DNA of 41,758 nucleotides from a virus. A model generated the notes under the pieces. That model was not told the DNA's origin, did no database searches, and saw nothing but the letters and a program-made list of their open reading frames with translations. The stretch lies in IMG/VR virus record IMGVR_UViG_3300046461_000166, positions 1 through 41,758 of that record; one strand, given 5' to 3'. Shown here piece after piece: positions 2,601 through 33,932 of this stretch (position 1 is the stretch's first letter; each line of letters opens with the position of its first letter). The position numbers and the translations under genes are program-made.

Positions 2601-3347
2601 ATGACCACCTTCGCCCTCTCGCTGCCGCTCGATCGCATCTCCCCCGTGCGCGTGCCCACGCGCGATCTGGTCCTGGGCAGTACCGATAGCGTCACGTTGA
2701 TGGTCTCCATCGTCGATCGCGACAGCCCCGACGCGCTGCCGATCGAACTGTCCGGCGGCATCGGCGGTCCGGCGGTCTCCCTGTTCGTCTGGCCCGACAG
2801 CAGAGGGTGCCACGGTCCGAACTTCGGCGGCTGGGGGTGCGGCAACTGGGATTATGGTTGGGGCGGCTGGTACAGCGGCGGGGTGGTCGGGCCTGGCACG
2901 ACGCTCTGGACCGCCACCGCCACGATTTACGACATGGCCACCGGCACGTTCCGCATCCGCGTCCCCGCCGGGACCCTGAGCGCCTGGCCGCACCGCTGCC
3001 GCTGGGCCGTGTTCTTCGACGCCGAGGGCGGTGGCGAGGCCGAGCTGCTCGCCGAGGGCCGTTTGCACATCCGCCCGATGCTCTCACGCGTGATCGACCC
3101 GCTGATCCTGCTGACCGATCCGAACCCGGCGGTGCTGACGGACGCGGAGGAGGCGATCTTCCTCGCCGGAGCGCCGGGCTCTTCTCCAGGCGCGGCGTCA
3201 GGCGCGTCACCTCCCGGCACGTTGCCTCCCGGCGCGATTTCAAGCGCGTTGCCGATCGCCACGACCACCACTCTGGGCGGCGTCAAAACGGACGGCGTCA
3301 CGACCAGAACGGATCCATCCGGGGTTTTAACCGCGACATTGGGGTGA
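2601..3347 (+). CDS. Tail or spike-associated structural protein
   Basis: A 248-residue protein of unknown family. The N-terminal half is beta-rich and reads like the adaptor domain of baseplate or fibre proteins (LPLDRISPVRVPTRDLVLG, then strands around DSVTLMVSIVDRD). It carries an unusual Gly/Trp/Tyr-rich loop at about residues 70-95 (WGCGNWDYGWGGWYSGG). The C-terminus is Gly/Pro/Ala-rich and ends in a short fibre-like motif (TTTTLGGVKTDGVTT), similar to the trimerising repeats at fibre tips. It lies directly before three spike genes, so it may connect spikes to the tail or be a fourth receptor-binding part. Confidence 0.5.
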   Translation: MTTFALSLPLDRISPVRVPTRDLVLGSTDSVTLMVSIVDRDSPDALPIELSGGIGGPAVSLFVWPDSRGCHGPNFGGWGCGNWDYGWGGWYSGGVVGPGTTLWTATATIYDMATGTFRIRVPAGTLSAWPHRCRWAVFFDAEGGGEAELLAEGRLHIRPMLSRVIDPLILLTDPNPAVLTDAEEAIFLAGAPGSSPGAASGASPPGTLPPGAISSALPIATTTTLGGVKTDGVTTRTDPSGVLTATLG

Positions 3348-3351
3348 GACC

Positions 3352-5454
3352 ATGACCACGACGACAGGCACGTTCCCCGGCGTTCGCATCTACGACCTGC
3401 CTGATCTGGGCGTGGTGACCGACACGACCTCGTTCGTCAGCGAAAAAGCCGGGTCGGGGCGTATCTCGGCCCTGGCGCTGCGAGATTACATGGCCGGTAT
3501 CGTTGCCCCCGCCCCCGGGCCAGGCGGCGGCCTGCCCGAGGCGCCGCTCGATGGCCGCTATTATGGCAGGCAGAGTGCCGCATGGCAGCCGGTGGCACCG
3601 ATTGTTTCGCCGGCCCTGACCGGAACGCCAACCGCGCCCACGGCGCCGACCGGAACCAGTAACACGCAACTCGCCACCACGGGGTTTGTATCGGCATCAG
3701 TTAGCGCCGCCGGATCGATCACCGAGGCGCCCTCGGATGGCGGGTATTATTCCCGTCGTAACGCGGACTGGGCACTCACGCCGAGCGGCCAATCGACGGT
3801 CGCCTCCCTTCCTCAACTGCGCGCTCAGACTTCCGCGACCGCCGAGTATATTTACGTCCAGGGCTACCACGGCCCAGGCGACGGCGGCGGCGGCGACTAC
3901 GTGCGAGGCGCGGACGGGGCCGACAACGGCGGCTCGATCATCGTCACCGGCAACGGCACCTTCTATCTCCAGACCTACGGCCATCCGGTCTCCGTGCGCC
4001 AGTTCGGCGCCCTGGGGGATGGGACCACCGACGACTCGGTGGCGTGCCAGCGCGCGCTGGATTCTTCCCTCGATGTCGTCTTCCCCGCCGGGCCGCAGGG
4101 CGACCCCGTGACCTACAGGTTGAGCAACTCACTCTATCCGCGTGTCGGAGCTACGATCAGAGGGGCGGGGAGCGGCTCCGTCACGCTGTTACAGACCGCC
4201 AACTTCACCACCATCTGGTTCGGCACCGGTTCACCGGCGAAATTCGGCAACTTCAACATCTCCGGCTTTACCATCCGAAGCGCCGTCGGCGGGAACATCG
4301 GACTGGTGAGCATCCTTTACAGCGATGTGACCATCAAGGACATGGTGTTCGCCGGATGCACCACGGCCTCGGTGCATATCGATGGCGGCTATAACATCCT
4401 CGTCGAGAATTGCGTTTCCATTCCGCACTTCGCGGGGAACCTCAAGGCGGGTCGCTACGAGGCCACCAGCACCGACACGGGCAATTATTGTTTTTATCCG
4501 ACCTTCCGGGATTGTCGTGTACAGACGGGAGAGGTTGAAAACCCAGGGGGGAGCACTCCAGGCGCGGCCACTCCTTGCGTGAGTTTCAATCGCGTGATCG
4601 GCGGCCTGATCGAGAACTTCATCGGTGAGCGGCTCAATTGGCCGACACCGAACAGCGTCGTCGGCATCCAGATCCAGGGCGACTGCCAGGGCGTCAAGAT
4701 CATCGGTGGCGTGACGTTTGGCGCCAGTTACGGCGTCGTCATGTTCGCGGACGCGGCCTCCGCCGCCGCGCCGGGGTATATCGTCGTGCAGAACCACGAC
4801 GTTGACGCCTGCTACACGGGTGGAATCAGCGTGAACGGCGCCGGGGCGAAGGTGTGCGCCGACATCATCATCACGGATTGCGTCATCACCGCCGAGCAGC
4901 TCATGAGCTGCATCGGTATCACGGTCGGCACGACGCTCCGGTTGATCGTCAAGGACAACATCCTGGATCAGTACCAGTTCACCCAGACCGGCGACGGCAT
5001 CCAGATCTCCAACACGAACATGGCTTTGATAACCGGCAACATCCTGACCAACCTGCACACCGCCTTCGGCATGGTGCCGTCCTGCGTCAACACGCAGTTC
5101 ACCGGCAACATCCTTCAGGGCAACGTCAACAACGTGGTCGGCGACATGTCGGCCAGCGGTACCGGCACCAACATGATCCGAGGCAACACCGGGGCCTACT
5201 CGTGGACGTTGCCCCACGGGACGCCCGCCATTCCGGCATCCGGCGTTTACATACAGAACACCACGGGCCTCGACGTCATGGTGCATGTCTACGGCGGCAA
5301 CGGGGTGACCATTGGGGTCAACGGCACGAGCACCGGCATCCTGTTTTCGCCGCTGGGTGGCGAACCCAAGGGGGGCAGCGCGTTCCTTCCCGCGAACGGA
5401 ACGATCGGCGTCAATTACGCGACGGCGCCGACATGGATCTGGATACCGGTCTGA
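3352..5454 (+). CDS. Tailspike 1, beta-helix (pectate-lyase fold) protein
   Basis: A 700-residue tailspike. The N-terminal anchor (GTFPGVRIYDLPDLG at about residues 6-20, ending near residue 60) is shared with spike 3. A linker with fibre-like repeats follows (about 60-150, including ALTGTPTAPTAPTGT). Then comes a motif shared with spike 3 (GYHGPGDGGGGDY) and the start of the right-handed parallel beta-helix (VRQFGALGDGTTDDS at about 215-230), typical of phage depolymerases and of the pectate-lyase superfamily. The rest has the short hydrophobic turns of a beta-helix and probably cuts a host surface polysaccharide. The start is ATG 3352 two codons after the previous stop; the stop overlaps the next ATG. 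Confidence 0.85.
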   Translation: MTTTTGTFPGVRIYDLPDLGVVTDTTSFVSEKAGSGRISALALRDYMAGIVAPAPGPGGGLPEAPLDGRYYGRQSAAWQPVAPIVSPALTGTPTAPTAPTGTSNTQLATTGFVSASVSAAGSITEAPSDGGYYSRRNADWALTPSGQSTVASLPQLRAQTSATAEYIYVQGYHGPGDGGGGDYVRGADGADNGGSIIVTGNGTFYLQTYGHPVSVRQFGALGDGTTDDSVACQRALDSSLDVVFPAGPQGDPVTYRLSNSLYPRVGATIRGAGSGSVTLLQTANFTTIWFGTGSPAKFGNFNISGFTIRSAVGGNIGLVSILYSDVTIKDMVFAGCTTASVHIDGGYNILVENCVSIPHFAGNLKAGRYEATSTDTGNYCFYPTFRDCRVQTGEVENPGGSTPGAATPCVSFNRVIGGLIENFIGERLNWPTPNSVVGIQIQGDCQGVKIIGGVTFGASYGVVMFADAASAAAPGYIVVQNHDVDACYTGGISVNGAGAKVCADIIITDCVITAEQLMSCIGITVGTTLRLIVKDNILDQYQFTQTGDGIQISNTNMALITGNILTNLHTAFGMVPSCVNTQFTGNILQGNVNNVVGDMSASGTGTNMIRGNTGAYSWTLPHGTPAIPASGVYIQNTTGLDVMVHVYGGNGVTIGVNGTSTGILFSPLGGEPKGGSAFLPANGTIGVNYATAPTWIWIPV

Positions 5455-29879: not shown

Positions 29880-31181
29880 GTGCGAAAACCACGCCCGAAC
29901 GCCGTAATGATGGACTCATCAAAAGCCAGACTGGCAGTTTCCTATCTGCCCGTGGCCGAACTCGTCCCCGCCGAACGTAACGCACGCACCCATTCCCCCG
30001 AGCAAATCCAGCAGATCGCCCGCTCGATCGGCGCCTTCGGTTGGACCAACCCGATCCTGGTCGACGAGGCACGTGCCATCATCGCCGGCCACGGCAGGCT
30101 GGAGGCGGCACGGGTGGCGGGACTGGCCGAGATACCCACGATCACGCTGGCCGGCCTCAGCGCCGCTCAGAAGCGCGCCCTGGCCATCGCCGACAACAAG
30201 CTGGCGCTCAATGCCGGATGGGACGACGAACTGCTGCGGCTGGAACTGGGCGAACTGGGGCTTGAGGGCTTCGATCTCGGCCTGATCGGGTTCAGCGACC
30301 TGGAACTGAAGGACATCCTCGCCGATCGCACGGACGGGCTCACAGATCCCGACGACGTGCCCGAGCCGCCGGCGGAGCCCGTGACGCGCCTGGGCGACGT
30401 GTGGTTGCTCGGGCGGCATCGGCTGGTGTGCGGGGACTGCACCGACGCGGGCGTGGTCGAGGCCGCGCTGGACGGCGTGGTGCCGCACCTGATGGTGACC
30501 GATCCGCCGTATGGGGTGGACTACGATCCCGCGTGGCGTAGCGGCGAGGGTGTGGCCGATTCCATTCGGCATCCGAAAAAGGGAGCAACCGGCAAGCCTC
30601 GGAATGACGCTCGTGCTGATTGGTCGGAGGCGTGGGCATTATTCCCTGGCGATGTGGCCTATGTGTGGCACGGTGATCGGCAGCTTGTCGGCATGGCATT
30701 GGACCTTGAGGCGGCAGGCTTTGAACCACGCAACCTCATTGTGTGGGCCAAGCATAGATTCGTGATTAGTCGCGGCCATTATCATTCGCAGCATGAGTCT
30801 TGCTGGTATGCGGTGCGGAAATCCGCGACGGGACATTGGCAAGGTGACAGGACGCAATCAACGCTCTGGCAAATGGACGCTCAACAGAGATCCGAAACCG
30901 GCCACAGCACCCAAAAGCCCGTCGAGTGCATGCGTCGTCCGATCGAGAATAACAGCAGCCCCGGTCAGGCGGTCTACGACCCCTTCGTGGGCTCCGGCAC
31001 GACGATCATCGCCGCCGAGATGACCGGCCGCGCGTGCCACGCAATCGAAATATCCCCAACGTATGTCGATGTCGCCGTGCTGCGCTGGCAGGCGTTCACC
31101 GGCCAGACCGCGACGCTCGCAGCCGACGGCCGCGCGTTCGCCGACATCCAAACAGAGCGAGGATTGTCCCATGCCGCTTGA
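29880..31181 (+). CDS. ParB-domain DNA methyltransferase (N6-adenine or N4-cytosine)
   Basis: A 433-residue protein. The N-terminal ParB-like nuclease domain (about residues 20-110) shows LVPAERNARTHSPEQIQQIA, NPILVDEARAIIAGHGRLEA and KRALAIADNKLALNAGW. The methyltransferase half has motif IV DPPYGV at 208-213 before motif I DPFVGSGTT at 367-375, the beta-class order, and KPVECMRRPI. ParB-methyltransferase fusions are common in phages beside terminase and modify adenine or cytosine amino groups. Start GTG 29880 with GGGGA upstream. The early region ends and the late module begins just after it. Confidence 0.85.
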   Translation: MRKPRPNAVMMDSSKARLAVSYLPVAELVPAERNARTHSPEQIQQIARSIGAFGWTNPILVDEARAIIAGHGRLEAARVAGLAEIPTITLAGLSAAQKRALAIADNKLALNAGWDDELLRLELGELGLEGFDLGLIGFSDLELKDILADRTDGLTDPDDVPEPPAEPVTRLGDVWLLGRHRLVCGDCTDAGVVEAALDGVVPHLMVTDPPYGVDYDPAWRSGEGVADSIRHPKKGATGKPRNDARADWSEAWALFPGDVAYVWHGDRQLVGMALDLEAAGFEPRNLIVWAKHRFVISRGHYHSQHESCWYAVRKSATGHWQGDRTQSTLWQMDAQQRSETGHSTQKPVECMRRPIENNSSPGQAVYDPFVGSGTTIIAAEMTGRACHAIEISPTYVDVAVLRWQAFTGQTATLAADGRAFADIQTERGLSHAA

Positions 31182-31628: not shown

Positions 31629-33932
31629 ATGCCGCTCGATAACGCGCCAGCCCGCCTCGTCTGGGCGCCGCAGCCGGGACAGCAGCACAAGCTGGTCACC
31701 TGCCCCTATACTGAGATCCTGTTCGGTGGAGCGCGCGGCGGAGGTAAAACGGACGGCGTCCTTGGGAAATGGGCGGTCAAGGCGCAGCGTTATGGCGTTG
31801 GCTTCAATGGCGTGTTCTTCCGTAAGGAAATGCCGCAGGCTGACGACCTGATCGAGCGCGCCAAGGAAATCTACATCCCGCTGGGCGCCGAGTGGCGCGA
31901 GCAGCCGCGCCAGTTCCGCATGCCGGGCGGTGGCCGCGTGCGGTTTCGCCCGCTGGAGAACGTCTCCGACGCGAGCAAATACCAGGGCCAATCGATCAGC
32001 GATTGCGCGGTGGAGGAGGCGGGTAACTTCGAGGACCCGAAGCCTATCGATATGCTGTTCGGCGCGTTGCGTTCCAAGAGCGGCGTTCCCGCGCAACTGA
32101 TCCTCACCGCCAATCCCGGCGGCGTCGGGCAACAGTGGATCAAGCACCGTTACATCGACCCGGCGCCGCGCGGCATGGTTCCACTCGTCCGCAAGTTGCC
32201 GAACGGCGAGGAACATCGTTTCATTTACATACCGTCTCGCATTCAGGATAATCGTATCCTGTTGCAGAACGATCCCACTTACATCAATCGTCTGCACCTC
32301 GTCGGCTCGCCTGAACTGGTCCGCGCGTGGCTGGAGGGCGACTGGAACGTGGTCGCCGGGGCGTTCTTTCCCGAGTGGTCATCCGACCGGCACATCATCA
32401 TGCCTCGATCCCTCCCCGATCACTGGGCGCGGTTCCGCTCGTTCGACTGGGGCAGCGCGCGTCCGTTCGCGGTGCACTGGTGGGCGGTCAGCGATGGATC
32501 GGTTCCCGATATCGCGCGCGGCTGCCTCGTCTGTTACCGCGAGTGGTACGGCATGAAGCCGAACGAGCCGAACGTCGGGCTGCGTATGACGGCGGAGCAG
32601 GTGGCCGAGGGCATACGCGCGCGTGAGCGTGATGACCCGAAGCCCGCCAGCGGCATGATGGTGGGCGTTGCCGATCCCGCGATCTTCAGCGAGGACGGGG
32701 GGCCGAGCATCGCGTCCAGGATGACCCAGGCGGCGCGCATCGTGTTCCGGCCGGCGGACAACAAGCGGGTGCCGCAACGAGGTGCCATGGGCGGCTGGGA
32801 TCAGGTCCGCGCGCGGCTGGTGGGTGATGGCGACGGTAACCCGATGGTGGTGCTGTTCGCGACCTGCCGGGATCTTATCAGGACGTTACCCGCGATGCAG
32901 CATGATGACGCGAGGCCGGAAGACCTGGCGACCGATGGCGAGGATCACGCGGCAGACTCTTGCTTCGTGGCTGGTACAATGATCGAAACAGCACGCGGCG
33001 CGGTGCCGATCGAGGCCATGCGGGTTGGGACATTAGTACAGACCCGTCTCGGGTTGCGACCTGTCTGTGCTGTCTTCAGCAACGGGATGCGTTCGATTTA
33101 CCGACTGCCGCTGTCGAATGGCGTCATCCTCTTTGGTACGGCCAATCATCCAGTCTGGATCGATGGAAAAGGGTTTATTCCGTTGGCGGAACTCCGATAC
33201 GGTGATATGATGCGCCCATGGAAAACCCCAGTAAATACCACAGTGCCGCGCGGAAGATATGGGCTCGCGTCAATGGTGAAATCCCTCCACTCCACGATAT
33301 TCACCACCGCGACGGCGATCCGAAGAACAATGATCCCGCGAACCTGGAATGTCTGCCTCGTGGGCAACACCGAAGCGAACACTGGGCTGAACGAGAACCC
33401 GTCGAATATGTTTGCGAGGTCTGCGGGAGTGGGTTCAAGAGCATATGCGCGTGGTCTCCCCGTTTTTGCTCGAATGCCTGTAAGTCGAAATGGCGGAGAG
33501 ACGCGGGCCTTGATGTCGTCGAGCGCCGATGCGAAGGCTGTGGCGGTCTGTTCTTCGTCAATCGGTTCAAGGCTGGGGTCTATTGTTCCCGTGAATGTTC
33601 CGACCGGTTCGTGGCGGGCAAATATGAGCGGACTGTCGCAACGTATCGGTGCCACCATTGCGGCGTTATGTTCGAGGCCAGGGACGAACGCGCGATCTGG
33701 TGCAGTAACCGTTGCAGACGAGCCAACGATCGTCGGAAGGAAAAGGGTCTACAACCTCTCGGTGGAGGGAGTTGAAGAGTACTTTGCCAACGGTATTCTT
33801 GTTAGTAATTGCAGATACGCTATGATGTCACGTCCTTACGTTCGCGATATGGAACGGCAGAAGCCGCGCGATAGTTGGGACGCGGCGTTCAATCGTGACG
33901 ACAACGAAGTGCGGGACTGGAGGGTGGCGTGA
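31629..33932 (+). CDS. Terminase large subunit interrupted by an intein
   Basis: A 767-codon frame. The N-terminal ATPase has Walker A GGARGGGKT (33-41) and CAVEEAGNF (about 124-135). The nuclease part has acidic positions in SFDWGS, VGVADPAIF and GEDHAADS. Residues 445-727 are an intein (see below) inserted exactly after ...EDHAADS and before CRYAMMSR, that is, in the conserved last nuclease motif. After splicing, a 484-residue protein remains, the usual size for this family. The spliced gene cuts and pumps DNA into the head. It is preceded by the small subunit and followed by the portal genes. Confidence 0.9.
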   Translation: MPLDNAPARLVWAPQPGQQHKLVTCPYTEILFGGARGGGKTDGVLGKWAVKAQRYGVGFNGVFFRKEMPQADDLIERAKEIYIPLGAEWREQPRQFRMPGGGRVRFRPLENVSDASKYQGQSISDCAVEEAGNFEDPKPIDMLFGALRSKSGVPAQLILTANPGGVGQQWIKHRYIDPAPRGMVPLVRKLPNGEEHRFIYIPSRIQDNRILLQNDPTYINRLHLVGSPELVRAWLEGDWNVVAGAFFPEWSSDRHIIMPRSLPDHWARFRSFDWGSARPFAVHWWAVSDGSVPDIARGCLVCYREWYGMKPNEPNVGLRMTAEQVAEGIRARERDDPKPASGMMVGVADPAIFSEDGGPSIASRMTQAARIVFRPADNKRVPQRGAMGGWDQVRARLVGDGDGNPMVVLFATCRDLIRTLPAMQHDDARPEDLATDGEDHAADSCFVAGTMIETARGAVPIEAMRVGTLVQTRLGLRPVCAVFSNGMRSIYRLPLSNGVILFGTANHPVWIDGKGFIPLAELRYGDMMRPWKTPVNTTVPRGRYGLASMVKSLHSTIFTTATAIRRTMIPRTWNVCLVGNTEANTGLNENPSNMFARSAGVGSRAYARGLPVFARMPVSRNGGETRALMSSSADAKAVAVCSSSIGSRLGSIVPVNVPTGSWRANMSGLSQRIGATIAALCSRPGTNARSGAVTVADEPTIVGRKRVYNLSVEGVEEYFANGILVSNCRYAMMSRPYVRDMERQKPRDSWDAAFNRDDNEVRDWRVA
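32961..33809 (+). other. Intein inside terminase large subunit
   Basis: A 283-residue intein (codons 445-727 of the host gene). Block A is CFVAGTMIETARGAVPIEAM with the nucleophile Cys445, block B GTANHPVWIDGKGFIP with the conserved T-x-x-H, and block F VYNLSVEGVEEYFANG, ending ILVSN and the +1 Cys of the host. The usual His before the terminal Asn is replaced by Ser, a change that can slow Asn cyclisation but is seen in some inteins. Between blocks B and F (about 95-255) the terminase frame is open but low in pattern; the same DNA carries the HNH gene in another frame. Confidence 0.9.
33218..33775 (+). CDS. HNH endonuclease nested out of frame in the terminase intein
   Basis: A 185-residue protein in a different reading frame (+2) from the intein, ATG 33218, stop 33775. 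HNH pattern DIHHRDGDPKNNDPANLECL with a following H-x-x-x-H-W, then three zinc-binding Cys clusters: YVCEVCGSGF with FCSNACKSK, RRCEGCGGLFF with YCSRECSD, and YRCHHCGVMF with WCSNRCRR. Such nucleases normally lie in frame inside an intein and make it mobile; here the nuclease is coded on the other frame. The start has no good ribosome site, so initiation may be inefficient or coupled. Confidence 0.85.
   Translation: MENPSKYHSAARKIWARVNGEIPPLHDIHHRDGDPKNNDPANLECLPRGQHRSEHWAEREPVEYVCEVCGSGFKSICAWSPRFCSNACKSKWRRDAGLDVVERRCEGCGGLFFVNRFKAGVYCSRECSDRFVAGKYERTVATYRCHHCGVMFEARDERAIWCSNRCRRANDRRKEKGLQPLGGGS

Follow-up and report, generated by a model that had tools for sequence, protein, structure and literature searches.

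Inteins are usually described as single polypeptides in which the splicing and nuclease domains share one reading frame, and searches for their nucleases usually read the host frame only. The viral DNA analysed here (IMG/VR record IMGVR_UViG_3300046461_000166, 41,758 nt, referred to below as the window) raises the question of whether an intein may carry its homing endonuclease as a separate gene in a different frame, since the intein in its gene for the large terminase subunit (TerL) is overlapped by an out-of-frame HNH gene. We consider it very probable that a mobile intein occupies nuclease motif III of TerL at this locus and gives rise to two overlapping products, a TerL precursor that splices and a free homing HNH protein.

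The terminase intein and the overlapping HNH gene

The features of the locus, all on the plus strand, are as follows.

31629..32960 (+), TerL N-extein, residues 1-444, ending ...EDHAADS at nuclease motif III (PHROG 2 terminase large subunit, 3e-37; empty-site homologues)
32961..33809 (+), intein of 283 aa in the TerL frame, TerL residues 445-727 (Pfam Hint_2, 6e-8; NCBIfam intein_Cterm, TIGR01443, 2e-4)
32961..33224 (+), N-terminal splicing half with Cys1, block B TANH and the LRYGD end (profile match; pLDDT 94-97 over most of it)
33203..33205 (+), TGA stop in the HNH frame just 5' of the HNH start, arising from the intein Gly-Asp codons GGT GAT (sequence)
33218..33775 (+), HNH endonuclease gene, 185 aa, ATG to TGA, in the -1 frame relative to TerL and the intein (Pfam HNH_3, 3e-13; model pLDDT 88)
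33231..33575 (+), linker in the intein frame, intein residues 91-205, predicted to be disordered (pLDDT <50)
33251..33370 (+), HNH core, HNH residues 12-51, with invariant H29, H30, D32, N37, N38, N42 and H51
33413..33481 (+), zinc cluster 1, C66, C69, C84 and C88 (invariant or nearly so in homologues)
33530..33598 (+), zinc cluster 2, C105, C108, C123 and C127 (invariant or nearly so in homologues)
33650..33715 (+), zinc cluster 3, C145, C148, C162 and C166 (common to the window and its relatives L011 and L012)
33708..33809 (+), C-terminal splicing half, VYNLSVEGVEEYFANGILVSN, followed by Cys +1 (TIGR01443; pLDDT about 93-97)
33810..33932 (+), TerL C-extein, CRYAMMSRPY..., and stop (ORF; empty-site homologues)

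The initial annotation had reported a terminase frame open through an intein with recognisable splicing blocks, and this was borne out: the TerL ORF (31629-33932, 767 aa) is one continuous reading frame without a stop anywhere in the intein. The insertion is in frame and possesses both Hint halves, nucleophiles at positions 1 and +1, the TxxH motif of block B and a C-terminal Asn (ILVSN, then Cys); homologues of the host protein that lack the insert are continuous across the site, and removal of the intein restores the alignment with empty-site TerL. A further match, to Pfam Intein_splicing (1e-3), falls below the Pfam cut-off, and the penultimate residue is Ser rather than His, as in 27 of the 88 relatives scored. 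The structure model of the intein, built from an alignment of 26 sequences, reaches pLDDT values of 94-97 over residues 1-80 and 93-97 from residue 251, and stays below 50 at residues 91-205; its best matches in the PDB are inteins, the first being the Mtu RecA mini-intein (2.8e-6). Protein splicing is inferred from these features, without expression data. Upstream of the terminase genes, positions 29880-31181 encode a ParB-like N-terminal domain fused to an N6/N4 DNA methyltransferase.

A complete out-of-frame HNH protein with three zinc clusters, sharing about 560 bases with the intein linker, had also been proposed, and the overlap indeed measures 558 bases. Besides HNH_3, the protein matches PHROG 15471 (HNH family, 8e-24), and its model consists of an HNH core followed by three zinc-cluster modules of the pattern CxxC...CxxxC. 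Across 44-46 homologues, the core residues and the zinc ligands of clusters 1 and 2 show little or no variation, so that the core and zinc-binding modules expected of an HNH homing endonuclease are present. Foldseek comparison of the model with the PDB gave no match at E<=0.001 (I-HmuI was at rank 13). Most relatives of the window protein are longer, with an N-terminal segment and a central WH..S.EG..WH segment that it does not have, and it could therefore be altered or inactive; its nuclease activity and target site are inferred, in the absence of cleavage data. With its HNH in the -1 frame, the element departs from a canonical large intein, in which the endonuclease is in frame with the splicing domain. 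As one continuous ORF, it is not a fractured gene with a split intein either, which requires two separate ORFs.

Could such a double open frame arise by chance? For the window alone it could: given the 63% GC of the genome, it is no surprise that the intein frame stays open through the HNH gene (synonymous-shuffle P = 0.3-0.4), and this openness was rejected as proof. Among low-GC relatives, the equivalent frame remained stop-free in only about 2-3% of simulations. What gives the layout its weight is therefore the HNH match together with the relatives, that is, the low-GC simulations and about 114 recurrences.

Relatives, their phase and their host genes

Loci were gathered by HNH-protein searches of IMG/VR, GenBank phages and GTDB genomes, and scanned with profiles of the splicing halves. 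The first set comprised 92 distinct elements, with the HNH in the -1 phase in 90 and the +1 phase in two; the second contributed about 21 more of the -1 kind and a single +1 case. Altogether, related HNH genes sit out of frame inside about 114 inteins, the offset being an identical -1 in about 111, the totals being approximate because the two sets were not deduplicated against each other. L010, whose terL-intein-HNH region encodes the same proteins as the window, does not constitute independent evidence and was left out of the counts. No in-frame member of this HNH family was found among the IMG/VR, GenBank phage and GTDB loci. The candidate L154:3500-4330 was rejected as such, being an in-frame HNH intein of another kind; it adjoins sequence that reads like a helicase (SGKSLMLSQIKRDI).

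The relatives span GC contents of 0.32-0.70, and their splicing residues are well preserved (Cys1 in 87/90, TxxH in 88/90, and C, S or T at position +1 in 88). They include Tetrasphaera phage TJE1, Rhodobacteraceae phage LS06 and Acinetobacter phage Highwayman, in whose records only terL is annotated over the HNH gene, as well as contigs filed under Frankia, Glycomyces, Parabacteroides, Selenomonadaceae, Nitrospiraceae, Gemmatimonadales and a Methanomethylophilaceae archaeon. Judging by the flanking motif DH..DA/C (nuclease motif III), the host gene appears to be TerL in nearly all cases, although Pfam was run on a sample only. In L093, L094 and L108 a second site, in the ATPase domain, is also used, so that two inteins lie in one TerL, and both contain an out-of-frame HNH of this family. 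What had been noticed at a single locus therefore belongs to a large family.

That none of the 92 elements of the first set contains a stop is partly a matter of construction, because openness was required, and was not retained as evidence; the fair comparison is between about 114 open and 6 fractured loci, with L135, whose frame changes close to its end, and L139, truncated where the contig stops, standing apart. In five of the six (L024, L140, L031, L019 and L163, the last from Lactobacillus phage CL2), the ORF of the N half stops and is followed by the HNH gene and then by a separate ORF for the C half and the TerL C-terminus; in L005 (Brochothrix phage BL3) only an HNH remnant remains between the intein halves. 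All six look like fractured terL genes with split inteins. The regions concerned are L163:1642-2790 in CL2, where the C-terminal piece is unannotated, and L005:1903-2607 in BL3, where that piece is gp3.

Other inserts were encountered at or near the same site. Caudoviricetes sp. vir335 (L006:1693-3642), a virus assigned to Methanomassiliicoccales, has a mini-intein at the same TerL site, with neither an HNH nor a long linker. L195 and L198, whose TerL is about 63% identical to that of the window, carry a TerL intein a few residues from the window's site (TDGEDHA/CFAAGTVIDGLG), with an HNH match downstream. The +1 phase was found in another kind of host gene: L013:1892-6772 encodes a family A DNA polymerase (PolA) with two inteins. 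One has an in-frame LAGLIDADG nuclease; the HNH of the other (ORF 3144-3698) is out of frame, in the +1 phase, and some of its relatives are annotated as HNH nucleases located at DNA polymerase genes. The +1 phase also occurs in L143 and in L032, where the host is taken to be another phage gene.

Selection, translation and mobility

Differences between relatives reveal which of the two frames is conserved. Across 14 independent pairs, 26.7, 20.8 and 52.5% of the differences in the HNH region fall on HNH codon positions 1, 2 and 3, and the window and L012 give a similar pattern (27/26/55); outside the overlap, differences sit on position 3 of the intein frame (55.5% in the N half, 72% in the C half). 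Amino-acid identity within the overlap is 0.745 for the HNH frame, 0.534 for the linker frame and 0.511 for the unused third frame, and per opportunity, changes silent in the HNH that alter the linker occur about 4.7 times as often as changes of the opposite kind. Sequences were aligned as HNH proteins, a choice that biases the comparison slightly toward that frame; the third-frame control carries the same bias. On these comparisons the HNH frame is under purifying selection, in pairs that include the window and L012, and it is the conserved frame inside the overlap. A frame broken in close relatives would have refuted the original proposal; L011 and L012 keep it intact, with about 72% HNH identity.

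As linker identity is about equal to that of the third frame, the linker seems to be constrained mainly to stay open, and the relatives compared provide no evidence of a linker function. Nor is it kept for its own sake, which would likewise have told against the proposal (0.53 versus 0.51 in the third frame, and the vir335 mini-intein lacks such a linker). A Met codon followed by A never occurs in the nested HNHs (0/135), as opposed to 82/311 in TerL and 16/36 in free-standing HNH relatives, because ATGA would give TGA in the intein frame; being a consequence of the open frame, this absence is no separate line of evidence. Adjustment of linker hydropathy through HNH wobble bases, as the -1 phase might permit, was rejected (linker GRAVY -0.26, expected -0.30).

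In the relatives, the HNH start codon is mostly ATG and lies at a consistent place, usually with an HNH-frame stop closely 5' of it; in many of them this stop is at the position equivalent to that of the window. When the ATG nearest the conserved HNH start was taken regardless of its surroundings and compared with same-phase ATGs elsewhere in TerL, the Shine-Dalgarno energies were markedly stronger at the HNH starts (median -5.6 versus -2.4, p=2.6e-11), and separate translation is therefore likely. Together with the stop close upstream, these sites favour internal initiation over frameshifting, although there are no data on slippery sites. The window and L011/L012 have only a weak site (-3.0), and for this reason internal initiation in the window itself is inferred. 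The suggestion that an out-of-frame nuclease could be made separately is thus supported by comparative evidence (selection on the HNH frame, Shine-Dalgarno enrichment and about 114 relatives), without expression data.

The distribution of the insert is sporadic, the site being empty in about 70 of the 80 best TerL relatives. One of these, L168, lacks the insert and is 97% identical to the window in the TerL N-extein; nucleotide identity between the two is mostly 0.87-1.0 away from the site and falls to 0.57-0.70 in the 60 bp on each side, whereas the occupied relative L011 stays at 0.87-0.97 in those same flanks. With L169 there is a drop upstream, less clear downstream, against a noisier background. 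Sporadic presence and a footprint at the site, clear with L168 and less so downstream with L169, are what an HNH homing endonuclease would be expected to leave, and the divergence of the flanks fits co-conversion during homing, on the strength of few comparisons. Between L012 and the window, identity is 97% in the adjoining TerL extein and only 58% in the intein N half and 71% in the HNH, as if different alleles had entered one site. Free-standing HNH relatives adjoin terL or terS in several phages. The nested nuclease gene probably spreads the insert. Strict co-inheritance of HNH and intein was not established: their distances correlate (r=0.50) no better than those of either with TerL (0.69 and 0.53), and the partial r is 0.23.

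Rival readings, known systems and significance

The HNH frame might be an unexpressed relic or an accident, the intein frame alone being functional. The compatibility of the window's double open frame with chance at its GC content and the shortness of its HNH allow this, but it is rendered highly improbable by the purifying selection on the HNH frame, the invariance of the catalytic and zinc residues, and a linker frame without selection beyond staying open. An artefact of sequencing or assembly, displacing an ordinary in-frame HNH intein, is virtually ruled out: metagenome contigs do carry single-base indels, but two compensating ones would be needed in about 114 records, including the annotated TJE1, Highwayman and LS06, both intein halves lie in one frame while the HNH has its own start and stop, and an in-frame member of the family was not encountered in the collections searched.

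Two further readings accept a functional HNH protein. It could be a packaging co-factor of TerL, like the HNH proteins beside HK97-like terminases, rather than a homing nuclease; the HK97 HNH acts with the terminase at cos (discussed in PMC10448857), and the proximity of free-standing relatives to terL or terS would agree with such a role. We nevertheless hold this to be very unlikely in view of the many close TerL relatives without the insert, the divergent alleles inside near-identical exteins, the divergence at the insertion site and the confinement of the gene inside an intein. Alternatively, programmed -1 ribosomal frameshifting from the TerL frame could yield a fusion of TerL, intein N half and HNH. 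The nearly uniform offset corresponds to the common direction of bacterial frameshifting, and the window's own ribosome-binding site is weak; yet a consistently placed start codon with enriched Shine-Dalgarno sites, the little room left by the stop just upstream, the occurrence of the gene with its own start both free-standing and between split halves, and the existence of +1-phase cases leave this an improbable route.

Under the reading that we prefer, a mobile intein with two overlapping products, ribosomes in the TerL frame would produce TerL with the Hint splicing domain, the long linker being passive, disordered read-through, and the intein would then be spliced out. Other ribosomes, starting at an ATG inside the gene where the N-terminal splicing half ends, would read the same bases in the -1 frame and give a free zinc-ribbon HNH endonuclease. 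This protein would cut (or nick) the intein-less terL of co-infecting phages, and repair would copy the whole intein-HNH unit into the cut gene.

The layout itself has already been noted in the literature, since a 2015 report on brucellaphages describes a putative intein-encoded HNH gene out of frame in TerL and mentions in passing that a change in this HNH is silent in TerL (PMC4422536). The likeness to the window extends to the layout only, an out-of-frame HNH overlapping TerL and called intein-encoded; as far as the accessible part of that report goes, it concerns one phage group, without analysis of splicing blocks, selection, start sites or family. The initial annotation's description of a little-described form of mobile intein accordingly stands insofar as such elements are scarcely reported, and not insofar as it would imply that they are wholly undescribed. 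A hidden out-of-frame HNH, the ShiLan domain, has been described in a phage DNA methylase (PMC11855218, 2025). Like the HNH of the present family, it has zinc fingers, lies out of frame within a phage gene whose inserted segment is free of stops, and is inferred to be mobile. No splicing domain was found there, the start is GTG and no ribosome-binding site is detectable, whereas the window family has a Hint domain and relatives with Shine-Dalgarno sites; by its Hint domain the window's element departs from the ShiLan type, which has no self-splicing domain. The same paper cites bioRxiv 2025.01.02.630785, on actinobacteriophage inteins of 'non-canonical architecture', for overlapping reading frames, and for that reason this preprint, known to us only through the citation, may describe similar inteins.

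Canonical mobile inteins, such as those of mycobacteriophage TerL (PMC5050341), share the Hint splicing domain in TerL and an endonuclease between blocks B and F, but their nuclease is in frame and of the LAGLIDADG type, and their site lies in the ATPase domain. In fractured genes, where an endonuclease gene separates the halves of a split intein (Dassa et al. 2009, as cited in PMC6892783), the nuclease is likewise encoded on its own, as appears to be so for terL in six relatives of the window and as is the case for PolB in phage MIJ3, where an HNH gene lies between the halves; in the window, by contrast, the halves are joined by one open frame running through the nuclease gene. Family-wide conservation, a fixed phase, evidence of selection, a ribosome-binding signal and a link to fractured genes were not found in our literature search, the scope of which did not include bioRxiv 2025.01.02.630785.

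The double-reading layout is a widespread, little-described form of mobile intein in phage and prophage elements. It is an evenly balanced question whether separately translated out-of-frame nuclease genes in inteins amount to a general class of mobile element. Such a class would comprise one large and old TerL lineage, fixed in the -1 phase in phages of many bacterial phyla and in at least one archaeal genome, together with further origins that arose independently in other genes (PolA in L013 and another phage gene in L032), and it would offer a path linking free-standing homing nucleases and mobile inteins with genes fractured by split inteins. As a separate overlapping gene, the nuclease need not be spliced to act and is missed by annotation. 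Out-of-frame nucleases may account for some of the inteins classed as lacking an endonuclease, and the occurrence of joined and fractured forms within one family, although the direction of evolution between them is not set, makes the origin of split inteins directly testable.
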